Shown: positions 16,641 to 58,530 of the stretch, piece by piece | How positions within the stretch are numbered: the stretch's first letter is position 1 | Layout of the letters: the number at the start of each line of letters is the position of its first letter | Assembly (NCBI GenBank): GCA_032164295.1 | Contig: JAJHTX010000006.1 | Coordinates: 434,001 to 498,000, forward strand | Reading direction: 5' to 3' | Origin: Inonotus obliquus | Lineage: Eukaryota; Basidiomycota; Agaricomycetes; Hymenochaetales; Hymenochaetaceae | DNA length: 64,000 bases | Made by a program: the position numbers and the translations under genes | Notes under the pieces: model-generated | Told to the model about the DNA's origin: nothing | The model's input: only the letters and a program-made list of their open reading frames with translations | Databases searched by the model: none

Positions 16641-16709
16641 CTAGTGAGTCTGTTGATCGTTCATCGTACAATTAGTCGTCCATGAGTAACCTCTCTGAAC
16701 TGGTATTAC

Positions 16710-16944
16710 TAAGGACATACTACAAGGCAGGCCCATCTTCCGAAAGCCCTATCGATACACATTGAAGCCCACCAAAACCGTCAGTCCGCTCACACGCATC
16801 TAAGGGCTAACCTCATCTCCGCTGGCACCTGTTTGCCGAAACCCGCCATCTGTATCTAATCCGCAAGCTCTCAGAAACGAGCCCTATAGGAGACAATGAA
16901 TAATGCATCATAAGCCTGATAGACAGTATAACGTACCAATAAAC
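16710..16944. repeat. Cassette repeat R, copy 1
   Basis: About 235 bp that recur at 18951-19207 and 48805-49045, each time immediately downstream of an F-box gene. Shared text includes CATTGAAGCCCACCARAAYC and AACGAGCCCTRTAGGAGACA. The ORF seen in copies 2 and 3 is frameshifted here. Confidence 0.7.
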
Positions 16945-18273
16945 TCAACGATTCGTTGTTTTGATGATGATTGCATTGTCTTCGAAGCATATCTTAAGCT
17001 TGCTGATCAACCATTCATGGAAAGCATCAGACCGTTCAATCGGGACTTCTTCCGTATCGCCGGAGACTGATACTGTCGCGCAACCACTGAATCGTGAGTC
17101 TAACATGGTGCATAGAGCATCCATGTCACTGCGATTAGTTGCCTCTCCTAAAAACCAGTCACGAATGTCCAATGTGTGAAGCTCGGGACACGTTTTTCGA
17201 TTATCATCATCGAAGGTAAGCTCCCGAAACAGGCACGATAAGTGTTGAGTGTTGTAGCATTGGAGCTTTTGCAACGTAGGTAGTAAACGAAGCAACGGGA
17301 TCGTGATGTGCGTAGATTTGAACCCGGAGAGTTTGAGGGATTGCAGAGGAGGCGAGGAGCGTTGCACGAACTCCAACAGCGTCTGGAGCTCACATATCTT
17401 GTCCTGCCTACAGTGCAGATGGCGGAGAGAGGGAAGCGTCAACATGGGTAGAACGTATTCAGCGAACGATGCGTCAATTTCGAGTGTCTGGATTCCGTCG
17501 TGAACCAATGTTTTTTCCCTTGACGCCGCGACGTTCTGTGGAATATCCGGGTAAACAGCTCGTAAAAAGTAAACCGATAGTTCCTTCAGATTTGGGGCAA
17601 CCTCCAGTAATTTCAGGCAGATCTTCTGCGCAGATTCGCACCGCCAAAAATGGTTAACGAGCCGTACCCGTCTCAAGGCGTATAATGGTCCCTCTCCGAT
17701 ATCGAGCAAGTACCATCTGTCGAGGTCGAGATCTTCGAGCAGTGGGGAATGTGCAATGCTCAACTGAGGTTCTATCACCCTTCTCGGATGGTAACCGATA
17801 CGAAAGCGGAATTTTGCTCTTTCCAGCACAGGCATATCCGTCAATTCCAAGCCTGTTGACTCGGGGGAAAGATCAAATCTCCAGTCGAAATCGACATCCT
17901 TCCAGCGTCGTTGGTGAGATAGCATAGAGGAGGCGATATGGTGGGACGTGCTATGATCTTCGGGGTCGCTTCTCTTCGTGAGGGAGATTTGAAAATTGAT
18001 AGGCGACTGCCTCGTCCTCTCGAGCCATGTGTGATATACGTTGAGCAATGCATCCCGATCCTTTGTTTCTTCAGAGTAGTCGATGGATAGGTGGGACCAT
18101 AGCGAGCTGACATCGAGGGACACTTCACGCCAGCGACGGCAGACGTGCGAGATACACAGCGGCCCCCAGAGACCAGCGGAGCGTAATCCGGATTCCTCAT
18201 TCCTCATTTCCTTGGTGCTTGGTAGCGTCCAGATGAAGATGTCCTGAAGGACCTCCACGGGCAATTTGTCCAT
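16945..18273 (-). CDS. F-box-like protein 1
   Basis: Single-exon gene of 442 residues, counted from MDKLPVEVLQDIFIWTLP, the start shared with its paralogues; an upstream Met at 18288 would add five residues. The first 70 residues are an F-box-like domain (LPVEVLQDIFI, then CISHVCRRWREVSLDVSSLW), which binds Skp1 in SCF ubiquitin ligases. The rest has leucine-rich-repeat-like spacing (LPSLRHLHC, LLPTLQKLQCYN, ELHTLDI) that would choose the target. No stops or frameshifts. Closest relatives in the window are F-box 2 and F-box 3. The family is hugely expanded in mushrooms; the substrate is unknown. Confidence 0.8.
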   Translation of the reverse strand: MDKLPVEVLQDIFIWTLPSTKEMRNEESGLRSAGLWGPLCISHVCRRWREVSLDVSSLWSHLSIDYSEETKDRDALLNVYHTWLERTRQSPINFQISLTKRSDPEDHSTSHHIASSMLSHQRRWKDVDFDWRFDLSPESTGLELTDMPVLERAKFRFRIGYHPRRVIEPQLSIAHSPLLEDLDLDRWYLLDIGEGPLYALRRVRLVNHFWRCESAQKICLKLLEVAPNLKELSVYFLRAVYPDIPQNVAASREKTLVHDGIQTLEIDASFAEYVLPMLTLPSLRHLHCRQDKICELQTLLEFVQRSSPPLQSLKLSGFKSTHITIPLLRLLPTLQKLQCYNTQHLSCLFRELTFDDDNRKTCPELHTLDIRDWFLGEATNRSDMDALCTMLDSRFSGCATVSVSGDTEEVPIERSDAFHEWLISKLKICFEDNAIIIKTTNR

Positions 18274-18289
18274 GTCTGCCTTCCTCAAC

Positions 18290-18689
18290 CGTCAACGACT
18301 TTCTGTTCAAAACAAATGCTACCAGATATTAGCAAACTTGAATATGCGGCGAATATGAGACGGTGCAAGAAACAAGAAATAGCCTTACCCCATCAACGTA
18401 AGACGCTGGATCCCTGTGTTCGAAATTGAAGCACGCGTCTTTCTTCATTGCTTATATACTCATTACGTAAGTAGACGCATTTTCCATCATCACCACACAC
18501 ACAGATCTAGACGCTACTTAGCGTCGAAAGATCTGATAAAGTACAGCTATGTCGAATGACCAGCCTGATTGATGCTAATACTTACCGTAGAGCCCAACTC
18601 ATATAGCTGCAAGCGGGTCCTCCAGTGAATGGTCCATCCAGTGCGATACTCAACATTCTCAAATCATTATAAATCGTGAAGGTACTGAT
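18290..18689. repeat. Duplicated upstream flank of F-box 1
   Basis: Not coding. It matches the flank at 50455-50860 in blocks: CGTCGAAAGATCTGATAAAG, ATAGCTGCAAGCGGGTCC and ATTCTCAAATCATT. This shows that the promoter region was duplicated with the F-box gene. Confidence 0.6.
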
Positions 18690-18845
18690 GGATGCAGTTT
18701 CAAAGTGGGTTTTGACGAGGTGAATGGAGTGGACGAGACCTGCGCGCTCAAAAGCTCCAGTCTGGTCAACGGACAGGTTGCCAACAGGGCGATCCGCGCA
18801 CAGCGTGATCAGACCAGCGTCAGGAAACGGGCGCTCAATAAGACG
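18690..18845 (-). pseudogene. Arylesterase/SMP-30-like gene relic, piece 2
   Basis: Matches 51225-51390 of the intact arylesterase-like gene: TTTTGACGAGGTGAATGG, GACCTGCGC, AAGCTCCAGT, GACAGGTTG and GAGCGCTCAAT recur in order. Only about 150 bp is left. Right after it, at 18846-18940, comes sequence matching 50880-50965 in the opposite orientation, so the break involved an inversion. Confidence 0.65.
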
Positions 18846-18950
18846 TGATATTGAGGTCTAAACCAGAGTCGAGCTATGCAATGATTGAGAAAGCGGGAGA
18901 GTACCGTCTCATTACAGTCATCCGGATATCATTGTGGCCACAATTAGTAC

Positions 18951-19207
18951 AACTAGGGACATACTACAAGGCAGGTGACCTTCCGAAAGCCCTAACGATA
19001 GCATGTTACACAGAAGCGTATACCATTGAAGCCCACCAGAATCGTCAGTCCACTCTCACGCATCTAAGGGCTAACCTCATCTCCGCTGGCATCTGTTTGC
19101 CGAAACCAGCCATCTGTATCTAATCCGCGAGCTTTCAGAAACGAGCCCTATAGGAGACAATAAATAATGAATCAGAACTGGGTAGGCAGTACAACGTACC
19201 AACGAAC
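18951..19207 (+). repeat. Cassette repeat R, copy 2, with TPR-like ORF relic
   Basis: Same unit as 16710-16944 and 48805-49045. On the + strand it encodes GTYYKAGDLPKALTIA and YTEAYTIEAHQNRQSTL, ending LPKPAICI and TAA at 19121-19123. The spacing of Tyr, Gly and Ala resembles a tetratricopeptide helix pair, so this may be the tail of a lost TPR gene convergent with the F-box gene. Copy 3 keeps the frame; copy 1 does not. Confidence 0.5.
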
Positions 19208-20539
19208 TCAACGGTTCGTTTTTTTAATGACAATTGTGTTGTTTTTCTTGGCCTTGCTGATCAACCATTCATGAAAGGCATCAGACCGTTCAATCGGAAC
19301 TTCTTCCGCATCGTCGGAGACTGATACTGTTGCACAACCACTGAATCGCGAGTCTAACATGGTGCATAGAGCATCCATATTATCACTGCGATCATTTTCG
19401 TTCGTGAGGAACCAGACACGAAGGTCCAATGTGTGAAGCTTGGGACACGTTTTGCGATTATCATCATCGAAGGTAAGCTCCCGAAACAGGCACGATAAGT
19501 GTTGAGTGTTGTAGCATTGGAGCTTTTGCAACGTAGGTAGTAAACGAAGCAACGGGATCGTGATGTCCGGAGAATAGAACATGGAGAGTTTGAGGGATTC
19601 CAGAGGAGGCGAGGAGCGTTGCACGAACTCCAAAAGCGTCTGAAGCTCAGATATATAGTCCCGTGTACAGTGCAGACGACGGAGAGAGGGAAGCGTCAAC
19701 ATGGGTAGAATGTATTTAGCGAATGATGCGTCAATTTCGAGTGTCTGGATTCCGTCGTGAACCAATGTATTTGCCCTTGACGCCGCGACGTTCTGTGGAG
19801 ATTCCGCGTGAGCAGATTGTGAAAATTCTATTGATAGTTCCTTCAGATTTGGGGCAACCTCCAGTAATTTCAGGCAGATCTTCTGCGCAACTTCGCACTT
19901 CCAAGATTGGTTAACGAGTCGTACCCGTCTCAAGGCGTATAATGGTCCCTCTCCGATATCGAGAAAGTACCATCCGTCGAGGTCGAGATCTTCGAGCAGT
20001 GGGGAACATGCAACGCTCAACTGAGGTTCTGTTAACTGTCCCGGATGGGTATCGATACCAAAGCGGATTTTTGCTGTTTCGAGCATAGGCATATCTGTTA
20101 ATTTCAAACCCTTCGTCTTGGTGGAGGAAAGATAAAATGTCCAGTCGAAATCGACATCCTTCCAGCGTCGTTGGTGAGATAGTATAGAGGAGGCGATATG
20201 TTCGGAGTTGATATGACCTTCGGAGTAATTTCTCTTCCAGAAATAGAAGGAGATCTGAAAATTGATAGGCGACTGCCTCGTCCTCTGGAGCCATGTGTGA
20301 TACACGTCGAGCAATGCATTCTGTTCCATCGTTTCTTCGGAGTAGTCGATGGATAAGTAGGACCATAACGAGCTGACATCGAGGGATACTTCACGCCAGC
20401 GACGGCAGACGTGCGAGATACACAGCGGTACCAAGAGACCAGCGAAGCGCAATTTAGAATCCTTCTTCCTCATTTCCTTGATGCTTGGTAGCGTCCAGAT
20501 GAAGATGTACTGGAGGACCTCCGTGGGCAACTTGTCCAT
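19208..20539 (-). CDS. F-box-like protein 2
   Basis: Single exon, 443 residues from MDKLPTEVLQYIFIWTLP. It has the same F-box-like domain (CISHVCRRWREVSLDVSSLW) and leucine-rich C-terminal part as F-box 1, and is close to it at the DNA level (for example the run around 19440-19560 equals 17190-17310 with few changes). It lies head-to-tail behind F-box 1, separated by the relic and repeat R, so it is a local duplicate. The reading frame is intact. It probably acts as an SCF adaptor; the target is unknown. Confidence 0.8.
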   Translation of the reverse strand: MDKLPTEVLQYIFIWTLPSIKEMRKKDSKLRFAGLLVPLCISHVCRRWREVSLDVSSLWSYLSIDYSEETMEQNALLDVYHTWLQRTRQSPINFQISFYFWKRNYSEGHINSEHIASSILSHQRRWKDVDFDWTFYLSSTKTKGLKLTDMPMLETAKIRFGIDTHPGQLTEPQLSVACSPLLEDLDLDGWYFLDIGEGPLYALRRVRLVNQSWKCEVAQKICLKLLEVAPNLKELSIEFSQSAHAESPQNVAASRANTLVHDGIQTLEIDASFAKYILPMLTLPSLRRLHCTRDYISELQTLLEFVQRSSPPLESLKLSMFYSPDITIPLLRLLPTLQKLQCYNTQHLSCLFRELTFDDDNRKTCPKLHTLDLRVWFLTNENDRSDNMDALCTMLDSRFSGCATVSVSDDAEEVPIERSDAFHEWLISKAKKNNTIVIKKTNR

Positions 20540-21659
20540 GCCGGCCCTTTCTTCAACGACCTCCTATCTAAAACTGTTATTGGGTGTCAGCAAACATGAA
20601 GACTGGGCGAAGTGAGAGACACTCTTACTGCCAGAGAAACTGCAAGATGCCTATCGCTCTCACGGAGATTGCTTTTGCGACCGTCTGATGGATGGAAAAA
20701 GAAGAAAGGCTGACGGACGTATTTGTAATAAATATACTACGTAAGAATACATCCAAAGTAAGCATGAGCTCAGCTGAATCAGCAGACCACGACAACGTTA
20801 ATTTTGTTGGAGAGTTGGAGAGACTGTGCCCTTGGACACACTCATCACGTCCTTACGCGTACGTACCATCGGTAGATGATAAGATCAAGGCCATGTCAGA
20901 TTTCTCAAGTAGCACTAAAGGGACCAACCAGGTCAAAATTGAGGACTCTGTATCAACTTAATATAGCCTAAAATGATGCCATGAATTCAGCTTTAAAGTA
21001 TGTCATGGAGAATCAGATCGGCCAATGTCGACTGTAGGAAGTCGGAACCATGGACTGAAATTCGGACTTTGGTCGATTTGATCTGAGCGTGAGTTTATCG
21101 TGCCTACACAAGATAGCTGAAAGGAGCGGAGCGTGGGGTAAGTCCTATCATCAGGAAAAACCCTAAGATCGGAATCCACGGAATCATGTAGAATTCGTGG
21201 AATTTCCAAGAATTATCCCCGAAATTCCACGGATTCCAATTCCGATTAATTCCAAACCCCCCATTCCGAGTTCTGCAGATTCTCTATGTTCTCTTGCCCC
21301 ATTCGGTTAGGTCACGCAACTTTCAAATATATTGGTACCCCATTAGGCTAAGAAATGCATACCTAGCTTGGCATGTACTAAATAGCATTAATATTATTGA
21401 CACCGAAAAACTGTGATTTAAGGTTCACACGATAGATATCGATATAATAGTAATACGTGACATCATCGTTAAAATCCATTTGTTACATAATCGAAGCAAT
21501 CAGCTCTGTTACATAATAACATAATAGCGTAATACTAAGCATTACATAACAAACATTGGTTAGTTCCAATCCAGGCCTTTCCGACCAGTAGCGGAGGACG
21601 TCTCATCATTAAGCCTTATAATTCACGTTAGCTGGATGTTTAAGAAGTCGATATAGTAC
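20540..21659. other. Gene-poor spacer
   Basis: About 1.1 kb with no gene I can support. An 89-codon + strand frame at 20692-20961 has no family features. At 21170-21245 there is a cluster of GGAATTCC/ATTCCACGG-like short palindromes. 21400-21560 is AT-rich with repeated ATAATA and TTACATAA. Confidence 0.45.
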
Positions 21660-24810: not shown

Positions 24811-25348
24811 CTAATTGTCCCTCTGAACGATACTGTTCATGCCATTGTGGCAGTGAATGCAACCCTTGTGGTACAGCTGTCGAATGCCCAATTTCTTTGC
24901 ATGAATCTGTGCTTTAGCCAATTGCAGGCTCAATAGTAAGGCAATATACTCACTGCCATCTGTCACAGCTTCTGCACCTTCATTAGTTGCCATGCTGGCA
25001 TCTCCCACTTGCAGCTCTCCTTCCCAGGTTCGCACACTGTTATTCCATGCTCCTTTTGCCTAGGAACACCTTTTGCAACAAGTAAACATGCTACTGCCCC
25101 TCGCAGGTCGCGCACTTGGAGCGCCAGGTCGTCCTTCCTCGCAGGACGACTCGTCTCGATATCTGTGATGTCCACAGCCGTCTCGATCGTGGACCGGCTC
25201 CAATCGACTTGTACATGGATTCGACACAGTCCATGACTGCCGAAGCAGCACGTGTGGTCCTCCTGAAGAGCCCCGGTAATGAAAGCCTGCCTGTCTTGGG
25301 AGCACACGCACAAGTATACCTTGTGTGTGGCATACAGTGCTCGTACGG
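24811..25348 (-). other. Possible truncated coding region beside the transposon block
   Basis: A 116-codon minus-strand frame (25313 to 24963) and an overlapping 74-codon frame (25035 to 24811) have protein-like composition (LQVRDLRGAVACLLVAKGVP, QLAKAQIHAKKLGIRQL). An intron could join them. Transposon A1 starts at 25349, so any gene here would have lost its 5' part. I recognise no family; it could be chance. 24218-24810 shows nothing. Confidence 0.25.
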
Positions 25349-25660
25349 TAAATGTTCGAGATCGCGTCCGGTACCAAAATACCGAGACAAGGGGTGTATG
25401 GTTTTAAGTGGGGGAGGGCTAATACGTGCCGGTACTTAACCAGTACGCTCACGGTACTTGTTGTCTATGAAATGGGGGAGTGAATGGATGGGCTAGAAGT
25501 GAAGAGTATGTGATTCTGGTACAAAAAGGACAGGTCAGAGCGTGGGAAAAACTTCGGTATAGGTCGGTACAAGGGAGAACTGTCAGAAGAAATTGACTTA
25601 TTTGGCATGTAGATCCAGAGACGCTACAACCTGATAAATTCCCACGAACACCTGACATCC

Positions 25661-25692
25661 CGCTTTGTGCAAAACGCGATTTGCACAAAGCG
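25661..25692. repeat. Small perfect hairpin inside element B copy 1
   Basis: CGCTTTGTGCAAA and its reverse complement, 6 bp apart. It lies in a stretch of roughly 55-60 bp that is absent from B copy 2, where ACATCAGACATGGAAAG is continuous. It looks like a tiny insertion. Confidence 0.7.
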
Positions 25693-25702
25693 TTAACGAC
25701 AC

Positions 25703-26521
25703 GTGACCAGGAGAATGGAAAGACAATTCGATCGAACATACTATACACGCACACGCTATTGTCCCTGGGGCTCGACATTACCAGGACAAATCAATACACC
25801 AATATGCAGGTTCTGTGAATGGGCACATGAAGAGGCATGGTTACTGCAGACATGGATACTTGAGGATGCAGTCAATCATATGCTTCGAAGTGACCCGTAT
25901 TCAATTCAAACCAACCACCATTGGTCAACGGTTGCAGAGACAACTCAACCATTGTTCACACCTACACTGAATGCATACTTGCACGAAGTTACGGTTTGGA
26001 CAGGAAGGGGGTTACACTACATTGCGAATGCAGGTATAATTGCATGGACAAGAAGATCGATACATTCTCAGCTATGTCGACGAGTGGCAATACAACTCGA
26101 CTGGCCAATACATGCGGAAGCTACAAGAGAACATCAAGCACTACGCAATAATCTATTTGGCAACATAGTGGCACGATGGAAATCGGAGCAGAATCAATTA
26201 CCGGGGATGATAGCATTGGAAATCTCTCAACCGAGGGAACGGATCAACGGGGCGATCTTAACCTTCGTCATGGAAGGGATCAGTGGCGATCAGGTGCAAG
26301 GAACAGAGATACGGATACCCGACGGATATCGCCGAGCGACGATTTGGCGGACTGGGTTACCTGCGGAACAGGCAGAACCATACAGGCCCGCCGCTCCGGT
26401 GATTGATAATCGAGCTAATCCTGTTGAGGAAGGAAGCCCGAGTCAACCGAGACAGCTGACCAACCCAGCAGCACCTGCAGAAGATGAAGACATGGCAGAC
26501 TGTTCGAGTTGCTGTGCATGA
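25703..26521 (+). CDS. LTR-embedded protein, family B
   Basis: 272 residues from MTRRMERQFDRTYYTRTRYC; copy 2 of the element supports a start at MERQ. Visible features: ICRFCEWAHEE (CxxC pair, about residue 35), amphipathic WLLQTWILEDAVNHML, hydrophobic GLHYIANAGIIAW, NGAILTFVMEGI and RIPDGYRRATIW, a proline-rich tail and a cysteine-rich end DMADCSSCCA. It is transcribed in the same sense as the LTR. I recognise no domain. The CxxC-helix start and the late Pro/Asp-Gly-Tyr-Arg motif recur in the proteins of elements C and D, so I place all in one family. It is not gag or pol as I know them. The frame here is intact; function is unknown. Confidence 0.6.
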   Translation: MTRRMERQFDRTYYTRTRYCPWGSTLPGQINTPICRFCEWAHEEAWLLQTWILEDAVNHMLRSDPYSIQTNHHWSTVAETTQPLFTPTLNAYLHEVTVWTGRGLHYIANAGIIAWTRRSIHSQLCRRVAIQLDWPIHAEATREHQALRNNLFGNIVARWKSEQNQLPGMIALEISQPRERINGAILTFVMEGISGDQVQGTEIRIPDGYRRATIWRTGLPAEQAEPYRPAAPVIDNRANPVEEGSPSQPRQLTNPAAPAEDEDMADCSSCCA

Positions 26522-26796
26522 CATCATAAGGAACGTTCGAGAAGGACTGACGTGGCAGTGCAGAAGGCACGGAGCTCCACACAGCCACAGGATTGGCCGG
26601 TGATGGCGTGATTGCTGTGCACTGACCAGGTATGAAGTCATATCGAAGGATCTGGAAGATTGCAGGAGGAAATCGGAAGTGCATCGCCACCCGATTGGAG
26701 ATTGCGGGGTATCGGACAAGATAGGGGCTGTGCTCGGAAAGATCAGGAGGCTGTGCCCAAGGGAGCCCGGGTAACTCAATAGATAGAAGCTTCGGG

Positions 26797-26804
26797 TATA
26801 AATA
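26797..26804 (+). promoter_or_regulatory. TATA box of element B
   Basis: TATAAATA followed by GGCCAAGCG. An equivalent box occurs in C (28727), D1 (34472-34479, minus), D2 (57640) and E (42298), always in the last third to half of the unit. Confidence 0.65.
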
Positions 26805-27560
26805 GGCCAAGCGAGGGTGGCTATGTCCCTCAGCAAAATTCTTCTGTACTAGTGAATACAAAGAAGCCCCACAAAGCTTCTCTTCTTCGCTACCACTCTT
26901 ATCATCGGTACTAGTGTCCGGCCGGTCCCTTGACCCCGACTAAGTACTGTTGCTACCCCGCTCTACAAGCACCGCCTCGCACTTCCCATCGCCTATCAAG
27001 ACGGACTGCGAATATTGCCGGAGTGAGTGGACTTGTTCTGGTGCGTCGATCGTGTTGATCGATCGATCAATGTCGATCTGCTGATCCGATCCGCACTGGT
27101 CCTAACAAGAACGTAGCAAAACAAGAGTCTAATACCGTGGGAAAAACCTCGGTACAGGTCGGTACAGAAAGAAAGGGGTCGGTACGTGGAGGTATGTTGT
27201 CAAACAAGAAGATCAGTACAGAAACTAAAGGATGACGTGCAGAATACAAAGGATAACTAAAGGTCGGTACCGTGGGAAAAACGTCGGTACAGGTCGGTAC
27301 TGCAAGGAAACAGCTAGCACGGGGTGGTATAGCAAGAAACAGACTGGGGGAGGATGGTGGCTGAGAGTGTTGACTGGACCGGGAAGGAAACCTGAGCCCT
27401 CACACGGGAGGCTAACTCCAAAGTTTCACTTGAGACGGAACTGGGATGGGACTGGGACGGAAATCGAGACGAGACTGAGACGGAACTGAGAAGGGGGTGA
27501 GGAAACCCGAGCCCTCACGCTAGAGGCTAGCTCCTAAGATTACCTGGAGAGCTACTACAT

Positions 27561-29128
27561 TGAAAGGATTGTGCTGAAATTTTGATTCGATTAGGAACAC
27601 CGATCGAAACTACCCCGGATGGGACCGGTTAATTTCACTGGCCGGAGACGATCAGGATCGACAGCGAGAAGCGGAGAACACGCGAATCTAATACAATCCG
27701 AAGCCGACGATCAAGAAGCATCGGCTAGCAACGCTAATCCCGACGATCACACTAAACCTTCGCAAACGATGCAGCAAGTACAGCAACCTCCAACGGCTTG
27801 CTATAAATGCAGAAGAGTGCGACAGATCATCGAAGACCTACACAAGATAATACTACGGGAGGCAACGGGCATGTTAACATATCATGTGTCCAGCGAACGA
27901 GCAACAGCTTATCGAGAATACCACAATCCCCCGGAGGTCGTTCGAAATCGCACGAGGTCAACAATAGCAATGGATACGGCAATAGGCATGCAACCAAAGA
28001 CGCACTGGACAATAGTAGGAATCCACGACATATTAGCACTCGAGTGCCCAAGCACATTCGTGGAGATCAGTGCAGACTATGTTACGAACTGCCGCTCACC
28101 GATAACAGCGGCATGGGTTGCAAACACACTCAGGGAACTATGAGCATACTGCAAAGCTATTCGACTACAAGGAGACCTATACCTAGGCTGGAGAATACCT
28201 TCGAGCGATACTCGACGAAGTGTACGGCTACTCATCGCCATAGGCACCTACGTTAAACCACCTTGGTTTCCCCATGATGATATCCAATGTCGAATCACAC
28301 TTGACGGCCCCGAACAAGAGTCCCGAGGCGACAAGCAAATCACAGCCTTCATAGCCCCAGATGCTATACAACGGAACCCCGACGGAATTCCTTAAATGCA
28401 CGAGCAACTGCGGACGAGCGAACTTTAACTACGGCGCAGCCATGCAAAACCAATGGCATACGAACACGCATTCAATGACTCACTCATTGACTCACTCTAT
28501 GCACAGGGCGCAGCACAAGGCCGACCCCGAGCATAGGTTTCAATTCAGTTCAAGTCAAGATGAGTCAACGCCGAGTCATCGCCTTGCACAGGGCGCAGTC
28601 GATGAGTCAATCCGCAGCAGAACAATAGGAATACCGCACGAGTTTGGAAGCTAGAATAACAAATCAGATCGAGAGTAGGAACTACGGAGCGTAGGAAGTG
28701 GTCCGTCCACAACATGAGGAAAAGGGTATAAATAGTTGTAGACTTAGACCGTAGCTCCCCATCTTTCTTTCGATCGTCTTGTACATCGAGTCCTCTTAGG
28801 CATCTAGCTTCTAATCTGAAGACCACCTAATCTGCTTAACCTCTCTTACTCTACGGCGTGGAACGATTGATTAGTCGCCCACCGACTAGGGAAGCTTACG
28901 AACGGCAGTCGACACTGTCCTACTAGTCTGTCAACGAGGTTGAGGCCCGACTTGATTAGTAAACGAGAGCGTCTGAGGCAACGCTTAGTATACTTGGGAA
29001 TCTGCCCTGCTTGTGAAAACCGAGTAGGCTCCGGAAACTCTTACAAAAGCATCGCCGAACCCGTAACACTTGCGGACCGTCCTATTGTGGTTACTGTATA
29101 GTCCCTTTAGGGCGAGCGTTTTCTAACA
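27561..29128 (+). mobile_element. Solo-LTR-like element C
   Basis: 1568 bp, starts TGAAAGGATTGTGCTG and ends GCGTTTTCTAACA, with the 5-bp duplication TACAT (27556-27560, 29129-29133). It is inserted in LTR A1; the uninterrupted A sequence (GCTACTAC-TACAGGAGG) is seen in other A copies. TATA box at 28727-28734. It is the same size and layout as B and D but very different in DNA sequence. Confidence 0.85.
27619..28395 (+). pseudogene. LTR-embedded protein, family C, with one in-frame stop
   Basis: The frame starts MGPVNFTGRRRSGSTARSGE, stops at TGA 28141-28143, then stays open in the same frame for 83 more codons to TAA at 28393-28395. Features: CYKCRRVRQIIEDLHKIILR (CxxC plus helix), TIVGIHDILALECPS, then past the stop YLGWRIPSSDTRR and ITAFIAPDAIQRNPDG. 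The order mirrors the B and D proteins. The single stop with an open frame on both sides suggests recent decay, or read-through. Length would be about 258 residues if the stop were sense. Confidence 0.5.
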
Positions 29129-29453
29129 TACATACAGGAGGAGATATTTATACTACTGTACCGTAGTTAGCTCATAAATCCAAAAGGAGAAAGTAGAAAG
29201 GAAGATCAAAACAAAGAAAAGTCTGAAGAAAAATGTAACAAGGAAAGTGAACATTGCAGCGCCATCAGGGGGACAACAAGAAAGGGTTAGGGAGGACAAG
29301 ATACCAATGAAAATGTAGCATATAGTACCCCTGGATGAAAAGTCCTCAGGACAAGAGATCTGCGCCCCTGCTGATTGATACCGACACGTTCCTGGTGGTA
29401 CCGGACCTGAAAACCTTAATGGATACTGACCCTGAGCTTTCCCAAAGAACCGG

Positions 29454-30770
29454 TGAAGAGAACTACGTGCAGCTGAGCTCGGTATCAACCCCGGTATCCC
29501 ATTCTACGCTTACCCCATGCTACGGTACAGTCCCATCTACACCTTCCAGTATTCACCAGCACACCTAGAGAAACTGTCAGTCACATTTCTCAAGATACCG
29601 AACGCCGAGAGTACCGATACCGAGCGCCAAGAAACCCGGTACCGAGACAAATTGACAATTCAACATGCTCTCATGACATGGATCGGACGTCTCCCTCTCT
29701 GGTATTCATTCCTGATGGTTGGAGTATGCATGCCGGTTCTTTGGGGAAGCTCAGGGTCAGTATCCATTAAGGTTTTCAGGTCCGGTACCACCAGGAACGC
29801 GTCGGTATCATTTGGCAGGGGTTCAAATCTCTTGTCCTGAGGACTTTTCATCCAGGGGTACTATATGCTACGTTTTCATTGGTATCTTGTCCTCCCTAAC
29901 CCTTTCTTGTTGTCCCCCTGATGGCTCTACTGTAATCATTCTTCTTATGACATTTTTCTTTGTTTTGATCTTCCTTTTTACTTTCTCCTTTTGGACTTAT
30001 GAGCTAACTACAGTACAGTAGTATAAATATCTCCTCCTGTACGTAGTAGCTCTCCAGGTAATCTTAGGAGCTAGCCTCTAACGTGAGGGCTCGGGTTTCC
30101 TCACCCCCTTCTCAGTTCCATCTCAGTCTCATCTCAAGCTTCGTCCCAGTCCCATCCCAGTTCCGTCTCAAGTGAACCTTCAGAGTTAGCCTCCCGTGTG
30201 AGGGCTCAGGTTTCCTTCCCAGTCCAGTCAACACTCTCAGCCACCAGCCTCCCCCAGACTGTTTCTTGCTATACCACCCCGTGCTAGCAGTTTCCTTGCA
30301 GTACCGACGTGTACCGACGTTTTTCCCACGGTACCGACGTTTTGTTATCCTTTGAATTCTGCACATCCACCTTTCGTTTCTGTACTGAGCTTTTGTTTTA
30401 CAACGTTTCTGCACATACCGAACCCGTTCGTTCAAGTACCGACCTGTACCAACATTTTTCCCACGGTACCGACCCCTTTCTTTCTGTACCGACCTGTACC
30501 GAGGTTTTTCCCACGGTATTAGACTCTTGTTTTGCTACGTTCTCTCCCATACCGACCTGTACCGAAGTTTTTCCCATATTCTAACCTGTCCTTTTCATAC
30601 CAGAATCACATACTCTTTGCTTCTGGCCCATCCATTCACTCCCCCATTTCATAGACAACAAGTACCGTGAGCGTACTGGTTAAGTACTGGCACGTATTAG
30701 CCCTCCCCCACTTAAAACCATACACCCCTTGTCTCGGTATTTCGGTACCGGACGCGATCTCACACATTTA
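29454..30770 (+). mobile_element. LTR-like unit A, copy 2
   Basis: 1317 bp from TGAAGAGAACTACGTG to CGCGATCTCACACATTTA. It joins the truncated end of A1 head to head. Flanks CCGG and CTGC do not match, unlike other A copies, so this junction arose by rearrangement, not simple insertion. Confidence 0.85.
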
Positions 30771-31812
30771 CTGCCGACTGACACTTGTTGGTCTGTGCAC
30801 CTTCTTTGACGTTGGTCTGTGCACACTTAATGTCATAGATAGTCCCACGGTCCAATATAGTATAAAAGGAGTAGGGAGTCCACCTTAGCCACCTCGGCTT
30901 TGGTATCTCCTCTACCTCCCAGTGTTAAGTCAAACTTGGTGTGCTGTCCTTCTAAGGGAGCGAAGCTCACCTCGATGCTGCGCCTTGTAAGCATAGTAAG
31001 CTGGCTGGGACAGGTGGATTGCCAAGCTCGCCCTCCGTTGTCAACATGGCTGTGGCTGGCTTGTGATAGTGAACCTTGGAGATACGTGTTCGCCTGGGTA
31101 TTGCGCCTGGGTACTGTGCGTGACCCCTCAACGCACAATGACCCCTTAACACACACTTTTGATGTAGCTCACTCAAATCTTCATCGCTCGACCTACAAAC
31201 TTGTACACAGGTAGCCAGTGATGACATCTACTGTCTTGTAAATTTTGGTGTAGAAATACCAAGTGTATGCTGAGATCTCAAGCGCACAGTGTGGCATTCT
31301 TTCCAAATCAGTTACCTTTTGTGAACTGAGAACTTTCTCACGCATTGTATTATTGGTACAATTATGAGACGTGCAGCTGGTGCGCTGAAATTTTGTACAG
31401 TACTAGCTATGGGTCAGTGGTATTATTGTGCAAATTTTCAAAGCATAATACTAGCTGTGTGTCGAGTTACAGGATGCCGTTTACGCTGCTCAAAGTGGAG
31501 TCCGATCATGTGAGAACTGGATACAATCCGACTTTTCAATTTTTTTAAATTTGTACCTCTGAACAAAAACATACAACTATTGGAGATTATGCTAGTATAT
31601 AGGTCACTATATGTACATAAAAAGCTCCATGCTGAATGATACAGAATTGAGATTAATATCAGCAATTCAGTAGTACAGGTGTAAGTATGGTATTTTTCAT
31701 ACTTCTGGGCCGCTTTTATAGCTAATTTATTGAATCAAGCGATGTAAGCCATCTGTAACCTCTGAAAAAGGTAAGCCAGAACTTGCAAGCTTCCAAATCC
31801 ACGGTTTCGTTT

Positions 31813-32320: not shown

Positions 32321-32808
32321 GGAAGTGTGCGACGAGACACAATATTAGCACTCACGTTAACGCACAATCGATAACGCACAGTCAATTTTCCCACGACTGT
32401 GCGTTAAGGGGTCTTTCACTTCGACGCGCGATTTTCGACACCTCCATTCGTAAATTCAATAAAATATTCTACATACATCAGTCCCCCATAAAAATCGTGA
32501 ATTGTGTTCTCAGGATGGCAGGCTGCATTATAGTGTAGTTATTTTCGTACAAATTGCGTATGTTGAATTTGTGTTGAGCAAAAATCCTTAAACTGTGCGT
32601 TAATGGGTGATGCACAGTATGTGCCTCTGTCCCCAGGCGTCGGCCTTTATGGTCGACATGGGTTTGCTGTTGTGGGTTGGCATTCATAGCCTGTGTCTTC
32701 GACGTACTCCTCTAGGATCCGGGTATCTTCCGCGGCCTAGTCCACTCTCGCAATGTGCTAGAGATGGTTGGCGAGACCCTCGCTCCCCGCTGTTAATTCG
32801 GAGGCGCT

Positions 32809-33961
32809 GAAGAGAACTACGTGCAGCTGAGCTCGGTATCAAGCCCGGTATCCCATTCTACACTTACCCCATGCTACGGTACAGTCCCATCTACACCTTC
32901 CAGTATCCACCAGCACACCCAGAGAAACCGTCAGTCCCATTTCTCGAAGTACCGAACACCGAGAGTACCGGTACTGAGCGCCAAGAAACCCGGTACCGAG
33001 AATACCGAGAGTACCGAGTGCCGAGAAACCCGGTACTGAGACAAATTGACAATTCGACATGCTCTCATGATATGGATCGGATGTCTCCCTCTCTGGTATT
33101 CATTTCTGATGGTTGGACTATGCATGCCAGTTCTTTGGGGAAGCTCAGGGTCAGTATCTGCTAAGGTTTTCAGGTCCGGTAGTACCAGAAATGCATCGGT
33201 ATCAATCAGCAGGGGTGCAGATCTCTTGTCCTGAGGACTTTTCATCTAGGGGTACTATATGCTACGTTTTCATTGGTATCTTGTTGTCCCTAACCCTTTC
33301 TTGTTGTCCCCCTGATGGCGCTGCAATGTTCACTTTCCTTGTTACAATTTTCTTCAGACTTTTCTTTGTTTTGATCTTCCTTTCTACTTTCTCCTTTTGG
33401 ATTTATGAGCTAACTACGGTACAGTAGTATAAATATCTCCTCCTGTACGTAGTAGCTCTCCAGGTAATCTTAGAAGCTAGCCTCTAGCGTGAGGGCTTGG
33501 GTTTCCTCACCCCCTTCTCAGTTCCGTCTCAGTCTCATCTCGATTTCCGTCCCAGTCCCATCCCAGTTCTATCTCAAGTGAATCTCAGGAGTTAGCCTCC
33601 CGTGTGAGGGCTCAGGTTTCCTTCCCAGTCCAGTCAACACTCTCAGCCACCAGCCTCCCCCAGTCTGTTTCTTGCTATACCACCCCATGCTAGCTGTTTC
33701 CTTGCAGTACCGACCTGTACCGACATTTTTCCCACGGTACCGACCCTCTTAATTCCGGACAAGAACACATTCCCCCTGACATCTAGCTGGTCCAGCACCT
33801 CTTTCTATTATTCCTTTGACTCCTCTTACATCCCCCTACTACAGACAATAAGTACCGTGAGCGTACTGGATAAGTACTGCCTCATTTGGCCCTCCCCGTT
33901 TTCCTAAACCATACACCCCTCGTCTCGGTATTTCGGTACCGGACGCGATCTTGCACATTTA
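32809..33961 (+). mobile_element. LTR-like unit A, copy 3
   Basis: 1153 bp, TGAAGAGAACTACG to TCTTGCACATTTA, with 4-bp flanks GCGC (32805-32808) and GTGC (33962-33965), one mismatch. TATA box TATAAATA at 33428-33435. It lies close to the 3' end of D copy 1. Confidence 0.85.
33113..33427 (+). other. Conserved 104-codon ORF just upstream of the LTR A TATA box
   Basis: MDYACQFFGEAQGQYLLRFS to SFWIYELTTVQ, ending at the base before the TATA box. It has two long hydrophobic stretches (GTICYVFIGILLSLTLSCC and a Phe/Leu-rich one). The same frame is open in A1 (29153-29488), A2 (29719-30021), A5 (39090-39404), A4 (40554-40868) and A6 (43854-44168). The copies are so alike that an open frame is weak evidence of coding. 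Function unknown. Confidence 0.3.
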
Positions 33962-38399: not shown

Positions 38400-39709
38400 T
38401 AAATGTGCGAGATCGCGTCCGGTACCGGAGGTACCGAGACGAGGGGTGTATGGTTTTAAGTGGGGGAGGGCTAATATGTGCCGGTACTTAACCAGTACGG
38501 TCACGGTACTTGTTGTCTATGAAAAGGGGGAGTGAATGGATGGGCCAGAAGCAAAGAGTATATGATTCTGGTATGAAAAGGACAGTTTTGAACGTGGGAA
38601 AAACTTCGGTATAGGTCGGTATGAGAGAGAACGTAGCAAAACAAGAGTCTAATACCGTGGGAAAAACCTCGGTACAGGTCGGTACAGAAAGAAAGGGGTC
38701 GGTACGTGAAGGTATGTTGTCAAACAAGAAGATCAGTACAGAAACAAAAGGGTGACGTGCAGAATGCAAAGGATAACAAAATGTCGGTACCGTGGGAAAA
38801 ACGTCGGTATAGGTCGGTACTGCAGGAAAACAGCTAGCACGGGATGGTATAGCAAGGGACTGAATGAGGTTGACTGGTGGCTGAAGGTGTCGACTGGACT
38901 GGGAAGCAAACCTGAGCCCTCACACGGGAGGCTAACTCCTGAGGTTCACTTGAGACGAAACTGGGACAGAACTTGAGACGAAGCTGAGATGAGACTGAGA
39001 AGGGGGTGAGGAAAACCTGAGCCCTCACGCTAGAGGCTAGCTCCTAAGATTACCTGGAGAGCTACTACGTACAGGAGGAGATATTTATACTACTGTACCG
39101 TAGTTAGCTCATAAATCCAAAAGGAGAAAGTAGAAAGAAAGATCAAAACAAAGAAAAGTCTGAAGAAAAATGTAACAAGGAAAGTGAACATTGCAGCGCC
39201 ATCAGGGGGACAACAAGAAAGGGTTAGGGAGGACAAGATACCAATGAAAACGTAGCATATAGTACCTCTGGATGAAAAGTCCTCAGGACAAGAGATCTGC
39301 GCCCCTGCTGATTGATACCGCCACGTTCCTGGTGGTACCGGACCTGAAAACCTTAACAGATACTGACCCTGAGCTTTCCCAAAGAACCGGCATGCATAGT
39401 CCAACTATCAGGAATGAATACCAGAGAGGGAGACGTCTGATCCATGTCATGAGAGCATGTTGAATTGTCAATTTGTCTCGGTACTGGGTTTCTCGGCACT
39501 CGGCACTCTCGGTATTCTCGGTACCGGGTTTCTTGGCGCTCGGTATCGGTACTCTCGGCGTTCGGTATCTTGAGAAATGTGACCGACAGTTTCTCTAGGT
39601 GTGCTGGTGAATACTGGAAGGTGTAGATGGGACTGTACCGTAGCATGGGGTAAGCGTAGAATGGGATACCGGGGTTGATACCGAGCTCAGCTGCACGTAG
39701 TTCTCTTCA
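38400..39709 (-). repeat. LTR A, copy 5 (5' LTR of the gag element)
   Basis: 1310 bp, TGAAGAG...CGCACATTTA in minus sense. Dense in GGTACC and CGGTACCG. TATA box on the minus strand near 39084. It supplies the reference ends for the other A copies. Confidence 0.85.
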
Positions 39710-40011
39710 TCGGTTCGTAGTTCATTATGATGAATCGTCTCCTAATCATGATGTCCAACTGTCCTTTAATTATTGCTGAGTATGTTATTTCCTTTAGTAT
39801 TTCTTGGAGTAGCTTCTCTGCTATCTCGTGTGCTGGTCTACATGTACTACAATACTGTAACACTCCTGGTCTTGGTGTTGCTGGTATTATTGGCTGTTGT
39901 AGTGCTCGTGTAACCGCATTCAACCTTTCCTGTATCCAATTCATATTGGGATTGCTTTGGTTATTAATCAGACTTAGTAATAGTGAATTGTATTGCTTTT
40001 CTAACACCCGC

Positions 40012-40248
40012 TGTCTGTCTCGAAGTCTCTTTCACATTATTCTCTGATTGTCTACTAGTCTAGTCTGCTGGCCTGACGATGTCCCTCCTCTTGACCTCGT
40101 AGGAGAAGTGCTCAAGTGTCAACTGTGAGTATAATCCCTTTCACGAGTTGCCTAGGTGTTATGGTGCGCACCTCCCTTGCGGAGAGTCCCCGCGTGCTGT
40201 CTCGTCGACATGAAGAACGAAGAATGTCTCGACCCTCAGGTTGAGCGT
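40012..40248. other. Short host segment between insertions
   Basis: Continuous with 32613-32786 once D copy 1 is removed, and with 41561-41964 once A4 is removed. No gene seen. Confidence 0.6.
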
Positions 40249-41556
40249 TGAAGAGAACTACGTGCAGCTGAGCTCGGTATCAAGCCCGGTATCCCATTCT
40301 ATGCTTACCCCATGCTGCGGTACAGTCCCATCTACACCTTCCAGTATCCACCAGCACACCCAGAGAAACCGTTGGTCCTATTTCTCAAGATACCGAACGC
40401 CGAGAGTACCGGTACCGAGCGCCAAGAAACCCGGTACCGAGAATACCGAGAGTACCGAGTGCCGAGAAACCCGGTACCGAGACAAATTGACTATTCGACA
40501 TGCTCTCATGACATGGATCAGACGTCTCCCTCTCTGGTATTCATTCCTGATAGTTGGACTATGCATGCCGGTTCTTTGGGAAAGCTCAGGGTCAGTATCT
40601 GTTAAGGTTTTCAGGTCCGGTACCACCAGGAACGTGGCGGTATCAATCAGCAGGGGCGCAGATCTCTTGTCCTGAGGACTTTTCATCCAGAGGTACTATA
40701 TGCTACGTTTTCATTGGTATCTTGTCCTCCCTAACCCTTTCTTGTTGTCCCCCTGATGGCGCTGCAATGTTCACTTTCCTTGTTACATTTTTCTTCAGAC
40801 TTTTCTTTGTTTTGATCTTTCTTTCTACTTTCTCCTTTTGGATTTATGAGCTAACTACGGTACAGTAGTATAAATATCTCCTCCTGTACGTAGTAGCTCT
40901 CCAGGTAATCTTAGGAGCTAGCCTCTAGCGTGAGGGCTCAGGTTTTCCTCACCCCCTTCTCAGTCTCATCTCAGCTTCGTCTCAAGTTCTGTCCCAGTTT
41001 CGTCTCAAGTGAACCTTTAGAGTTAGCCTCCCGTGTGAGGGCTCAGGTTTGCTTCCCAGTCCAGTCAACACCTTCATCCACCAGTCTCTCCCATTCAGTT
41101 TCTTGCTATACCACCCCATGCCAGTTGTTTTCTTGCAGTACCGACGTGTACCGACGTTTTTCCCATGGTACCGACATTTTGTTATCCTTTGTATTCTGCA
41201 CATCACCCTTTTGTTTCTGTACTGACCTTTGTGCTTGACAACATTTCTCCACATACCGACCCCTTTCCTTCGGTACCGACCTGTACCGACGTTTTTCCCA
41301 CGGTATTGGATTTCTGTTTTACTACGTTCTCCTTCATACCGATCTGTACCGAGATTTTTCCCACGCTCTAACCTACTCTTTTCACACCAGTCTCATACCC
41401 TTCACTTCTGGCCAGTCCATTAACTCCCCCTATTCATAGACAACAAGTACCGTGAGCGTACTGGTTAAGTACCGGCACGTATTAGCCCTCCCCCACTTAA
41501 TACCATACACCCCTCGTCTCAGTACCTCCGGTACCGGACGCGATCTCGCACATTTA
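40249..41556 (+). mobile_element. LTR-like unit A, copy 4 (solo)
   Basis: 1308 bp, TGAAGAG to CTCGCACATTTA, with the perfect 4-bp duplication GCGT (40245-40248, 41557-41560). This copy best proves the ends of A. Confidence 0.9.
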
Positions 41557-41969: not shown

Positions 41970-42528
41970 TGTTACAACGTCTTTTCCATTTCCTTTATAC
42001 GGCCTTTCTTTTATTTTTCGTCAATGCATATTTACATTCCTTTTAAACCACATTCCTTACTTAATACATACAGGCTTAGCTAATCACAATCTATAACAAC
42101 TTTATCCCGCCATTCCTTTCTATTCTTCTATTTACTCATTCTTGCTGACTCATTATTCTTCTTTCCGTTTAACCCGACGACGCTTACTCATCCTTACTCA
42201 TTCTTGCTGACTTGTCGGGCCCCGTTGTTTGTTGGTTCATATTTACTTGCTGCTAGACAGCATCTATTTAGAGTAGAACTTACCCGCGACCAAAGTGTAT
42301 ATAAGGCTGGATCAGAGAGCTAGAGATTCCCCACTCTCTTGTTCTAGTACTATCACCTACGTCGCAGGTAAGCCGTATGATACTTGTGTATTAGATAGGC
42401 GTGCTAATCTAGTACTATCACCTACGTCGCAGACTACAGTCTTTTGTGATTTAGTGGTAGCTCGCTTTCTTGCCCGTCGACGTCTCTGATCCCTGTGATC
42501 GACGTCTCCGACTGCGCAAAGCATAACA
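41970..42528 (+). mobile_element. Solo LTR E
   Basis: 559 bp, TGTTACAACGTC to GCGCAAAGCATAACA, with the perfect 5-bp duplication GTGAG (41965-41969, 42529-42533). TATA box TATATAA at 42298-42304. It has the same ends and duplication size as B, C and D but is a third of their length and has no ORF. It shows that an LTR of this type without the extra ORF exists here. Confidence 0.85.
42343..42432 (+). repeat. 25-bp direct repeat that frames a possible intron in LTR E
   Basis: TCTAGTACTATCACCTACGT plus CGCAG occurs twice, 65 bp apart. The first copy is followed by GTAAGC (donor at 42368); the second ends in GCAG (42432). GCTAATC at about 42404 could be the branch point. Splicing would remove exactly one repeat period from the leader. 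Confidence 0.45.
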
Positions 42529-42631
42529 GTGAGGGCATTACCGATAGCTCTTAATTGTCAGAAGAAATTGACTTATTTGGCATGCGGATCCAGAGACGCT
42601 ACAACCCGATAAATTCCCACGAACATCAGAC

Positions 42632-44694
42632 ATGGAAAGACAATTCGATCGAACGTATTATACACGCACACGCTATTGTCCCTGGGGCTCGACATTACCA
42701 GGACAAATCAATACACCAATATGCAGGTTCTGTGAATGGGCACATGAAGAGGAATGGCTACTGCAGACATGGATACTCGAGGATGCAGTCAATCATATGC
42801 TTCGAAGTGACCCGTATTCAATTCGAACCAACCACCATTGGTCGACGGTTGCAGAGACAACTCAACCATTGTTCACACCTACACTAAATGCATACTTGCA
42901 CGAAGTTACGGTTTGGACAGGAAGGGGGTTACACTACATTGCGAATGCAGGTGTAATTGCATGGACAAGAAGATCGATACATTCCCAGCTATGCCGACGA
43001 GTGGCAATACAACTCGACTGGCCAATACATGCGGAAGCTACAAGAGAACATCAAGCACTACGCAATAATCTATTTGGCAACATAGTGGCACGATGGAAAT
43101 CGGAGCAGAATCAACTACCGGGGATGATAGCATTGGAAATCTCTCAACCGAGGGAACGGATCAACGGGGCGATCTTAACCTTTGTTAAATGTGCGAGATC
43201 GCGTCCGGTACCAGAGGTACCGAGACGAGGGGTGTATGGTTTTAAGTGGGGGAGGGCCAAATGAGGCAGTACTTATCCAGTACGCTCACGGTATTTGTTG
43301 TCTGTAGAAGAGGGATGTAAAGGGAGTCAAAGGAATAATAGAAAGTGGTGCTAGACCAGCTAGACGTTGGGGGGGGTGTGTTCTTGTCCGGAATCGAGAG
43401 GGTCGGTACCGTGGGAAAAATGTCGGTACAGGTCGGTACTTGAACAAACGGGATCGGTATGTGCAGAAACGTTGTAAAACAAAAGCTCAGTACAGAAACG
43501 AAAGGTGGATGTGCAGAATACAAAGGATAACAAAAGGTCGGTACCGTGGGAAAAACGTCGGTACACGTCGGTACTGCAAGAAAACAACTGGCACGGGGTG
43601 GTATAGCAAGAAACTGAATGGGAGAGACTGGTGAATGAAGGTGTTGACTGGACTGGGAAGCAAACCTGAGCCCTCACACGGGAGGCTAACTCTGAAGGTT
43701 CACTTGAGACGGAACTGGGATGGGACTGGGACGAAGCTTGAGAGGAGACTGAGATGGAACTGAGAAGGGGGTGAGGAAACCTGAGCCCTCACGCTAGAGG
43801 CTAGCTCCTAAGATTACCTGGAGAGCTACTACGTACAGGAGGAGATATTTATACTACTGTACCGTAGTTAGCTCATAAATCCAAAAGGAGAAAGTAGAAA
43901 GAAAGATCAAAACAAAGAAAAGTCTGAAGAAAATTGTAACAAGGAAAGTGAACATTGCAGTGCCATCAGGGGGACAACAAGAAAGGGTTAGGGAGGACAA
44001 GATACCAATGAAAATGTAGCATATAGTACCTCTGGATGAAAAGTCCTCAGGACAAGAGATCTGCGCCCCTGCTGATTGATACCGCCACGTTCCTGGTGGT
44101 ACCGGACCTGAAAACCTTAATGGATACTGACCCTGAGCTTTCCCAAAGAACCGGCATGCATAGTCCAACCATCAGGAAGGAATACCAGAGAGGGAGACGT
44201 CCGATCTATGTCTTGAGAGCATGTCGAATTGTCAATTTGTCTCGGTACCGGGTTTCTCGGCACTCGGTACTCTCGGTATTCTTGGTACCAGGTTTCTTGG
44301 CGCTCGGTACCGGTACTCTCGGTGTTCGGTACTTCGAGAAATGGGACTGACGGTTTCCCTGGGTGTGCTGGTGGATACTGGAAGGTGTAGATGGGACGAG
44401 CTCAGCTGCACGTAGTTCTCTTCATCGTCATGGAAGGGATCAATGGCGATCAGGTGCAAGGAACGGAGATACGGATACCTGACGGATATCGCCGAGCGAC
44501 GATCTGGAGGACTGGGTTACCTGCCATGGTACAGGCAGAACCATACAGGCCCGCCGCTCCGGTGATTAATAATTGAGCTAATCCTGTTGAGGAAGGAAGT
44601 CCGAGTCAACCGAGACAGCTGACCAACCCAGCAGCACCTGCAGAAGATGAAGACATGGCAGACTGTTCGAGTTGCTGTGCATGACATCATAAGG
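42632..44694 (+). pseudogene. LTR-embedded protein, family B, copy 2, broken
   Basis: Same protein as 25703-26521, from MERQFDRTYYTRTRYC. It is cut after ILTFV by LTR A6 (43186-44424) and resumes at VMEGINGDQVQG. Further on, a CGA codon of copy 1 is TGA here (44572-44574). Confidence 0.8.
43186..44424 (-). mobile_element. LTR-like unit A, copy 6
   Basis: 1239 bp, in + sense TAAATGTGCGAG to GTAGTTCTCTTCA. Flanks TTGT (43182-43185) and TCGT (44425-44428); the empty site in B copy 1 reads TCGT, so one base has changed. Confidence 0.88.
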
Positions 44695-45277
44695 AACATT
44701 CGAGAAGGACTGACGTGGCAGTGCGGAAGGCACGGAGCTCCACACAGCCACAGGATTGGCCGGTGATGGCGTGATCACCATGCACTGACCAGGTATGAAG
44801 TCATATCGAAGGATCTGGAAGGTTGCAGGAGGAAATCGGAAGTGCATCGCCACCCGATTGGAGATTGCAGGGTATCGGACAAGATAGGGGCTGTGCTCGG
44901 AAAGATCAGGAGGCTGTGCCCAAGGGAGCCCGGGTAACTCAATAGATAGAAGCTTCGGGTATAAATAGGCCAAGCGAGGGTGGCTATGTCCCTCAGCAAA
45001 ATTCTTCTGTACTAGTGAATACAAAGAAGCCCCACAAAGCTTCTCTTCTTCGCTACCACTCTTATCCTTGGTACTAGTGTCCGGCCGGTCCCCTTGACCC
45101 CGACTAAGTACTGTTGCTACTCTGCTCTACAAAGCACCGCCTCGCACTTCCCATCGCTTATCAAGACGGACTGCGAATATTGCCGGAGTGAGTGGACTTG
45201 TTCTGGTGCGTCGATCGTGTTGATCGGTCGATCAATGTCGGTCTGCTGATCCGATCCGCACTGGTCCTAACATTAAT

Positions 45278-48804: not shown

Positions 48805-49045
48805 CTGCGAGGCAGGCCGACCGCGGGCGCTATCGATAACACGATACACAGAAGCGTATATCATTGAAGCCCACCAGAATCGTCAGTCCACTCTCGCACA
48901 TCTAAGAACTAACCTCATCTCCGCCAGCACCTATTTGCCGAAGCCCGACATCTGTATCTAATCCGCGAGCTTTCAGAAACGAGCCCTGTAGGAGACAATA
49001 AATAATGAATCATAACTGGATAGACAGTACAACGAACCAACAAAC
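48805..49045 (+). repeat. Cassette repeat R, copy 3
   Basis: Same unit as 16710 and 18951. The + strand frame YTEAYIIEAHQNRQSTLAHL to LPKPDICI is open and ends at TAA 48959-48961. Confidence 0.6.
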
Positions 49046-58144: not shown

Positions 58145-58331
58145 GGATTTAGTGGGGGACCGGAAAGTGGGACATGAAGATTGACGCTAGTTACTATAAA
58201 TGGAAAGTATTTAAAACTCCGCCCGGGAAAAAGTGGCACGGATTTTTTATAGGCCGTACCAGGCACCAGTATCAGCGGGGTTGAAATGCAAATCGATATA
58301 TAAAATATCATCACGTGTGATATCCTTATCA

Positions 58332-58530
58332 ATATTGTTATCGATATCTATATTGATATTGTTATCGATATCTATATTGATATTGTTATCGATATCTATA
58401 TTGATATTGTTATCGATATCTATATTGATATTGTTATCGATATCTATATTGATATTGTTATCGATATCTATATTGATATTGTTATCGATATCTATATTGA
58501 TATTGTTATCGATATCTATATTGATATTCT
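58332..58530. repeat. 24-bp minisatellite, about 8 units
   Basis: Unit ATCGATATCTATATTGATATTGTT (read as ATCGATATCTATATTG + ATATTGTT), nearly identical copies. The matching place in the right arm of G has about one unit, so the array grew only in the left arm. Confidence 0.85.

Follow-up and report, generated by a model that had tools for sequence, protein, structure and literature searches.

Genomic context and LTR-like units

Four LTR-like units, named B, C, D and E, lie on the plus strand of the window, the whole 64-kb stretch of Inonotus obliquus DNA (Table 1). An original prediction had described B, C and D as units with the form of solo LTRs, each carrying an ORF of about 250 codons in the U3 position. 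The coordinates, TG...CA ends and 5-bp target site duplications (TSDs) of all four units were re-found. E was confirmed in its length and TSD as an LTR without an ORF, no long ORF being present on its own strand among the ORFs listed.

Table 1. Positions in the window of the four units and of the features within them.
Feature	Position	Strand	Description
Element B, solo LTR	25581-27107 (1527 bp)	+	TG...CA; TSD agaac, 25576-25580 / 27108-27112
B LTR ORF	25715-26521	+	268 codons from ATG, intact
B TATA box, TATAAATAG	26797-26805	+	LTR 1217; 3′ of the B ORF
Element C, solo LTR	27561-29128 (1568 bp)	+	TG...CA; TSD tacat, 27556-27560 / 29129-29133
C LTR ORF (putative U3)	27619-28395	+	258 codons in intact copies; LTR 59-835
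C TATA box, TATAAATAG	28727-28735	+	LTR 1167
C self-priming segment (predicted RNA 5′ end)	28761-28776	+	Complementary to nt 3-18 downstream of the 5′ LTR in full-length copies
Element E, ordinary solo LTR	41970-42528 (559 bp)	+	TG...CA; TSD GTGAG; TATA at LTR 329
Element D, B-family LTR	42556-45272	+	TG...CA; TSD TTAAT; nested insertion ~43190-44411

B and C are separated by 453 bp on the same strand. The ORF expected in each unit is intact in B alone: in C a single in-frame TGA (28141-28143) ends the frame of the window copy after 174 codons, and the frame of D is broken by its nested insertion of ~1.2 kb into pieces at 42626-43189 and 44412-44681. D is a copy of the B family, with 97% and 96% identity over two 300-nt stretches, and not a third kind of unit. 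The TATA box is kept in 15/15 B copies and in 31 of the 33 C rows compared across the genome, and among 14 complete B copies with their flanks examined, 9 have a matching 5-bp TSD. A second TATAAA occurs in C at LTR 242, within the ORF.

B and C were inserted into an older GGTACCGA-rich repeat that is also found inside D; it occurs in both orientations at window positions 25348-30771, 32805-33897, 38400-41556 and 43195-44420. Positions 79-134 of the B LTR (window 25659-25714) form a segment of ~56 bp with an imperfect palindrome that is absent from most listed B copies. Elsewhere, three copies of another repeat occupy 16700-20550 and 48800-50455, with minus-strand ORFs of 447, 443 and 469 codons, and an AT-rich array of 12/24-bp units at 58271-59953 contains inverted arms of 456 nt, 100% complementary and 337 nt apart.

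Element C is the LTR of a Ty3/gypsy chromovirus

Searches of the organism's own assembly (36.07 Mb in 30 contigs) recovered at least 40 C LTRs (the best 40 of 204 candidates), including same-strand pairs about 12,371 bp apart. Two internal proteins, ORF4 and ORF5, were each matched 18 times, and the places of the two sets coincide. All 18 internal copies are flanked on both sides, on the same strand, by ORF-bearing C LTRs, as assigned by hand comparison with the 147 listed places of the C ORF (the best 147 of 207 candidates). The paired LTRs are 12,339-12,487 bp apart in 15 of these copies; of the three odd pairs, one is spaced by 18,869 bp and encloses the reverse transcriptase (RT) of another element, and two, at 10,207 bp and 3,875 bp, have a shortened internal region. 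An RT match lies within 17 of the 18 (among the best 150 of 287 RT matches scored), and open frames of 1803-1808 aa persist in 13 of those 17. A 5-bp TSD surrounds the whole element in all four elements with both ends read.

The anatomy of the element was taken from one copy, read in two pieces (L051 and L052). It is 13.9 kb long with LTRs of 1566 bp, in the order LTR, ORF1 (293 aa), gag (371 aa, CCHC), pol, ORF4 (338 aa), ORF5 (254 aa), purine-rich tract and LTR. Pol comprises protease, RT, RNase H, integrase, a Tf2-1-like SH3 domain and a chromodomain (PF00385, E 3.8e-11) behind the integrase core. Direct LTRs, a TSD and gag followed by the order protease, RT, RNase H and integrase are the features of a Ty3/gypsy element, and a chromodomain at the integrase C-terminus is that of a chromovirus. 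C is the LTR of such a chromovirus.

The original prediction had named two findings that would refute it: that retroelement genes never lie between two such units, and that the units encode a transposase of their own and are DNA transposons. The first was put to the test by the searches above and did not hold for C. As for the second, a size of ~1.5 kb, a single ORF and target duplications could indeed suggest such transposons. The 18 two-LTR elements, 17 of them with RT, refute that reading for C, where a self-priming site is also present (see below) and no transposase family was matched among the internal genes scanned; neither LTR ORF, moreover, matched a Pfam family over the cut-off. For the units taken together a DNA transposon origin is now exceedingly improbable.

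Solo LTRs of this family are common. A set of 33 C rows, in which two places are counted twice, contains 19 solo copies with their own TSD, 11 ends of full-length elements (9 distinct), two copies with swapped flanks and one without a TSD. On contig C12, two neighbouring full-length elements share their middle LTR (G000:C12:390421-415968), giving three LTR ORFs and two internal regions. Swapped TSD halves are seen at an inverted pair of C copies (L025/L027, G000:C12 ~56.2-63.3 kb) and likewise at one of the B family (L011/L012, G000:C10 ~305.7-317.1 kb); at both pairs they indicate inversion by recombination between copies.

Self-priming complementarity places the C ORF in U3

In Tf1/Tj1 elements, according to a passage of PMC4600332, the primer site is complementary to the 5′ end of the element RNA. 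A corresponding arrangement is found in C, where nucleotides 3-18 of the sequence following the 5′ LTR equal the reverse complement of LTR 1200-1215 without a mismatch. This match is 16 nt long, whereas 1000 base-shuffled versions of the LTR gave at most 11 nt. The segment starts 34 nt after TATAAA (LTR 1166). Of the 33 C rows, 31 carry it unchanged and two differ by one mismatch; the primer site is present at the four distinct 5′ junctions examined. Because this complementarity is laid out as in Tf1/Tj1 self-priming, we infer that the C RNA starts at about LTR 1200. U3 would then extend from LTR 1 to about 1199 and would include the C ORF. Between the predicted RNA start and the ATG of ORF1 lie 927 nt without an ATG, where 8.3 are expected (0/1000 dinucleotide shuffles).

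By sequence, C thus carries a primer site of the Tf1 type, complementary to its predicted RNA 5′ end, and has a Sag-type layout with the whole ORF in U3, 5′ of the LTR promoter. For B, this layout is indicated by the position of the TATA box alone. The predicted placement of the ORF upstream of the LTR promoter therefore finds support for C in self-priming complementarity at the expected RNA start.

Four TGASTCA sites, which we take to be bZIP/Gcn4-like, lie in the C U3 between the ORF and the TATA box (window ~28476-28611; L051:1016-1149). Their number is four in 32 of the 33 C rows and three in the remaining one, and none occurs in 15/15 B copies; four sites were reached by 6/200 shuffles of L051.

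The LTR ORFs appear to evolve as protein-coding sequences

Among 15 complete B LTR copies, the ORF has accumulated 210 in-frame changes, of which 100 are synonymous against 59.0 expected when the same changes are placed at random (z=6.2). The shifted frames gave z values of -2.0 and -2.5, and the frames of the 3′ rest of the LTR -0.5, 1.1 and 0.6. Comparison with B2, a diverged B subfamily on contig C9 with 54% protein identity to B, yielded a dN of 0.40 and a dS of 1.39 (NG86), hence a dN/dS of 0.29 with dS near saturation, and 83/72/127 differences at codon positions 1/2/3 over 246 codons. This pattern of substitution indicates that the B LTR ORF evolves as a protein under purifying selection.

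For the C ORF, a first test with 27 distinct sequences, weak alone, gave z=2.5 (shifted frames -1.5 and -0.4; non-ORF control frames -2.3, 2.1 and -0.3). Addition of 10 diverged copies (37 sequences, ORF part only) raised this value to 3.4 (P=0.0005), with shifted frames at -1.5 and -0.7. Since the synonymous excess is confined to the ORF frame in the presence of shifted-frame controls, both ORFs appear to exceed what chance would leave open.

Individual copies decay to different degrees. The C ORF is stop-free in 115 and stop-bearing in 32 of the best 147 of 207 copies (hand count), a listing biased toward good copies, and the 258-codon frame is whole in 26 of the 33 C rows examined. In B, an ORF of 268-269 codons still runs from the expected ATG in six of 15 copies, in seven it ends earlier, and in two the start string was not found. 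The in-frame stops listed for broken B and C copies are mostly TGA, as would be expected from C-to-T changes at CGA or G-to-A changes at TGG.

Could the ORFs be passengers that yield no protein and remain open owing to the youth of their copies? The C copies are indeed 96-100% alike in the listed ORF, the proteins have neither relatives nor a fold in the searches made (see below), and stop codons show no significant depletion in B (13 vs 15.2 expected) and no clear one in C (6 vs 6.9 in the first set, 6 vs 10.8 in the second). The excess seen in the ORF frame alone in both families, the dN/dS of B against B2 with its codon-position differences, and an ATG-free stretch before the 3′ copy of the C ORF (see below) make this reading unlikely. 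The U3 gene looks real by these measures.

Protein searches with the B and C ORFs found no relative outside the organism's own genome at E<=0.001, and scans of viral contigs likewise gave none. No Pfam family scored over the cut-off for the B ORF, for the U3 ORF of C, or for ORF1, ORF4 and ORF5. AlphaFold models of the two LTR ORF proteins had mean pLDDT values of 34.6 and 37.8 and were not usable. Weak matches, of Vif with the B profile (E 0.7) and of P66 (E 0.18) and phrog_3455 (E 0.025) with C, were taken as chance. The nearest proteins to C pol stand at 77% (an 8.9-kb ENA contig) and 67% (Sanghuangporus baumii); the lineage is therefore represented in the database, although the searches found no relative of the LTR ORFs. 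The LTR ORFs of those relatives may never have been predicted as proteins.

The B/D family and its relationship to C

No full-length B element was found among 93/93 scored B ORF matches, nor were two LTRs with gag-pol between them found for B/D. B has the form of an LTR alone and is filed as LTR-like. Same-strand B neighbours on contigs C1 (L009) and C3 (L010) turned out to be separate insertions or broken copies, and a gypsy element beside the B copy on contig C13 (L054) is of a different family, as it ends in an LTR-like sequence of its own and does not match B. A self-priming pattern gave 0 matches for B. That the gene is copied into both ends of its element is thus shown for C only, in 18/18 copies found.

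These results would also suit a short, non-autonomous B/D unit that relies on another element for its movement, rather than LTRs of an autonomous one: the 93 scored matches include no full-length form, the priming pattern gave no match, and the neighbouring gypsy element on contig C13 has an LTR of its own. Against this reading, reverse transcription in known LTR elements requires two LTRs. The TG...CA ends, 5-bp TSDs and TATA layout of B/D are those of an LTR, and the 19 solo C copies with their own TSDs indicate that solo LTRs form readily in this genome. A mobilised unit of this kind is accordingly given little credence, and a U3 gene remains the probable reading of B/D. It is very likely that C and B/D are the LTRs of two LTR-retrotransposon families with an accessory protein gene in U3.

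Whether the two genes are related was addressed at the protein level. B and C showed no significant similarity by BLASTP or hhalign (hhalign probability 3%). Shuffle tests, depending on matrix and mode, gave P from 0.15 to 0.020 for B vs C and from 0.042 to 0/500 (BLOSUM45 local score) for B2 vs C. The motifs CxxCRRV and HW recur in matching order in the B2 and C proteins, and B and C share a layout with the ORF early and the TATA box at comparable LTR positions (Table 1). The shuffle tests and the matching layout make common descent of the two ORFs likely, if unproven.

Proposed expression and role of the U3 gene

The C RNA would start at about LTR 1200 and end in the 3′ LTR, and a single ORF would thus lie close to the RNA 3′ end. 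During reverse transcription the 3′ U3 of the RNA is the source of both U3s in the new element, and the gene would in this way enter both LTRs of a new C insertion. Selection on the 3′ copy would consequently keep both. LTR-LTR recombination would then leave a solo LTR, each one retaining the gene.

The copy in the 3′ LTR is most likely the productive one, because the 431 nt between ORF5 and the 3′ LTR ORF are free of ATG (4.4 expected, P=0.006); elsewhere in C, five ATGs occur in the gap before ORF4, nine before ORF5 and nine in U3 behind the ORF. This stretch reads as the leader of a 3′ RNA, which may be a short transcript starting in or near the gap between ORF5 and the LTR. A TATA[AT] scan found no site before the U3 ORF in that gap. 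A TATA lies 85 nt before ORF4; before ORF5, the scan gave no match, but CATAAATAG was read by eye ~86 nt upstream. In the 5′ LTR and in solo copies, only 58 nt of LTR precede the ATG, so transcription from outside would be needed.

Both LTR ORF proteins contain a Cys-x2-Cys motif, and B has Cys-x14-Cys-x2-Cys-x3-His. As a guess, the U3 protein could be a small accessory or regulatory protein, perhaps one controlling element expression or copy number in trans; such a role is put forward tentatively and with more doubt than confidence.

Comparison with known elements

A passage of PMC11998498 describes Sag of MMTV as an LTR-encoded ERV protein and refers to the ORF of the 3′ LTR. C resembles MMTV sag in that a whole protein gene lies in the LTR, at the RNA 3′ end, and is hence copied into both LTRs. 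The two differ in that MMTV is a mouse retrovirus and Sag a type II transmembrane protein, whereas C belongs to a self-primed chromovirus of a fungus. A Pfam family for Sag exists, and neither fungal ORF matched it in the Pfam scan (E<=1) or had such a PDB match. Lentiviral nef and spumaviral bet are likewise 3′ accessory genes reaching into U3; these overlap U3 in part, while the C ORF is wholly inside the LTR.

With the Tf1/Tj1-type elements of fission yeast, C shares the self-priming layout and, in its integrase, the Tf2-1-like SH3 domain and chromodomain. It differs from them in its 1566-bp LTRs with a U3 gene and in three further internal ORFs (ORF1, ORF4 and ORF5). Retrosat2 ORF0 and the extra ORFs of plant LTR retrotransposons are similar as orphan ORFs in large elements with long LTRs, as far as sections of PMC3485330 and PMC7264820 describe them. 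Unlike the C ORF, ORF0 of Retrosat2 is an internal ORF that sits outside the LTR, 5′ of gag-pol, and a term search of the plant review PMC7264820 returned no LTR-located ORF in the text it covered.

No fungal U3-encoded protein appeared among the titles and abstract openings listed from open-licence PMC literature, which is a weak absence. None is mentioned in sections of a fungal survey (PMC3248453), nor in those of a paper on the Podospora element crapaud (PMC10787394), which report a variable U3 of <200 bp. What stands here, as predicted from the DNA, is a self-primed fungal chromovirus (C) with a U3-encoded protein under purifying selection.

Implications

LTRs are regarded as non-coding regulatory DNA, and annotation masks them. 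A U3 gene that is copied to both ends of an insertion and survives in the solo LTR would turn the commonest leftover of an element into a possible protein gene, present in >100 copies. LTR-divergence dating presumes neutral LTRs, a presumption that would fail for half of the C LTR. The elements described here would offer a fungal counterpart to Sag-type U3 genes, in which it may be tested whether solo LTRs feed back on active elements via a protein. It is possible, at somewhat less than even confidence, that one old U3 gene family is common to at least two LTR-retrotransposon families of Inonotus obliquus and is a permanent accessory gene in one lineage of fungal chromoviruses, in which case solo LTRs would form a genome-wide reserve of genes whose proteins could affect active copies in trans.
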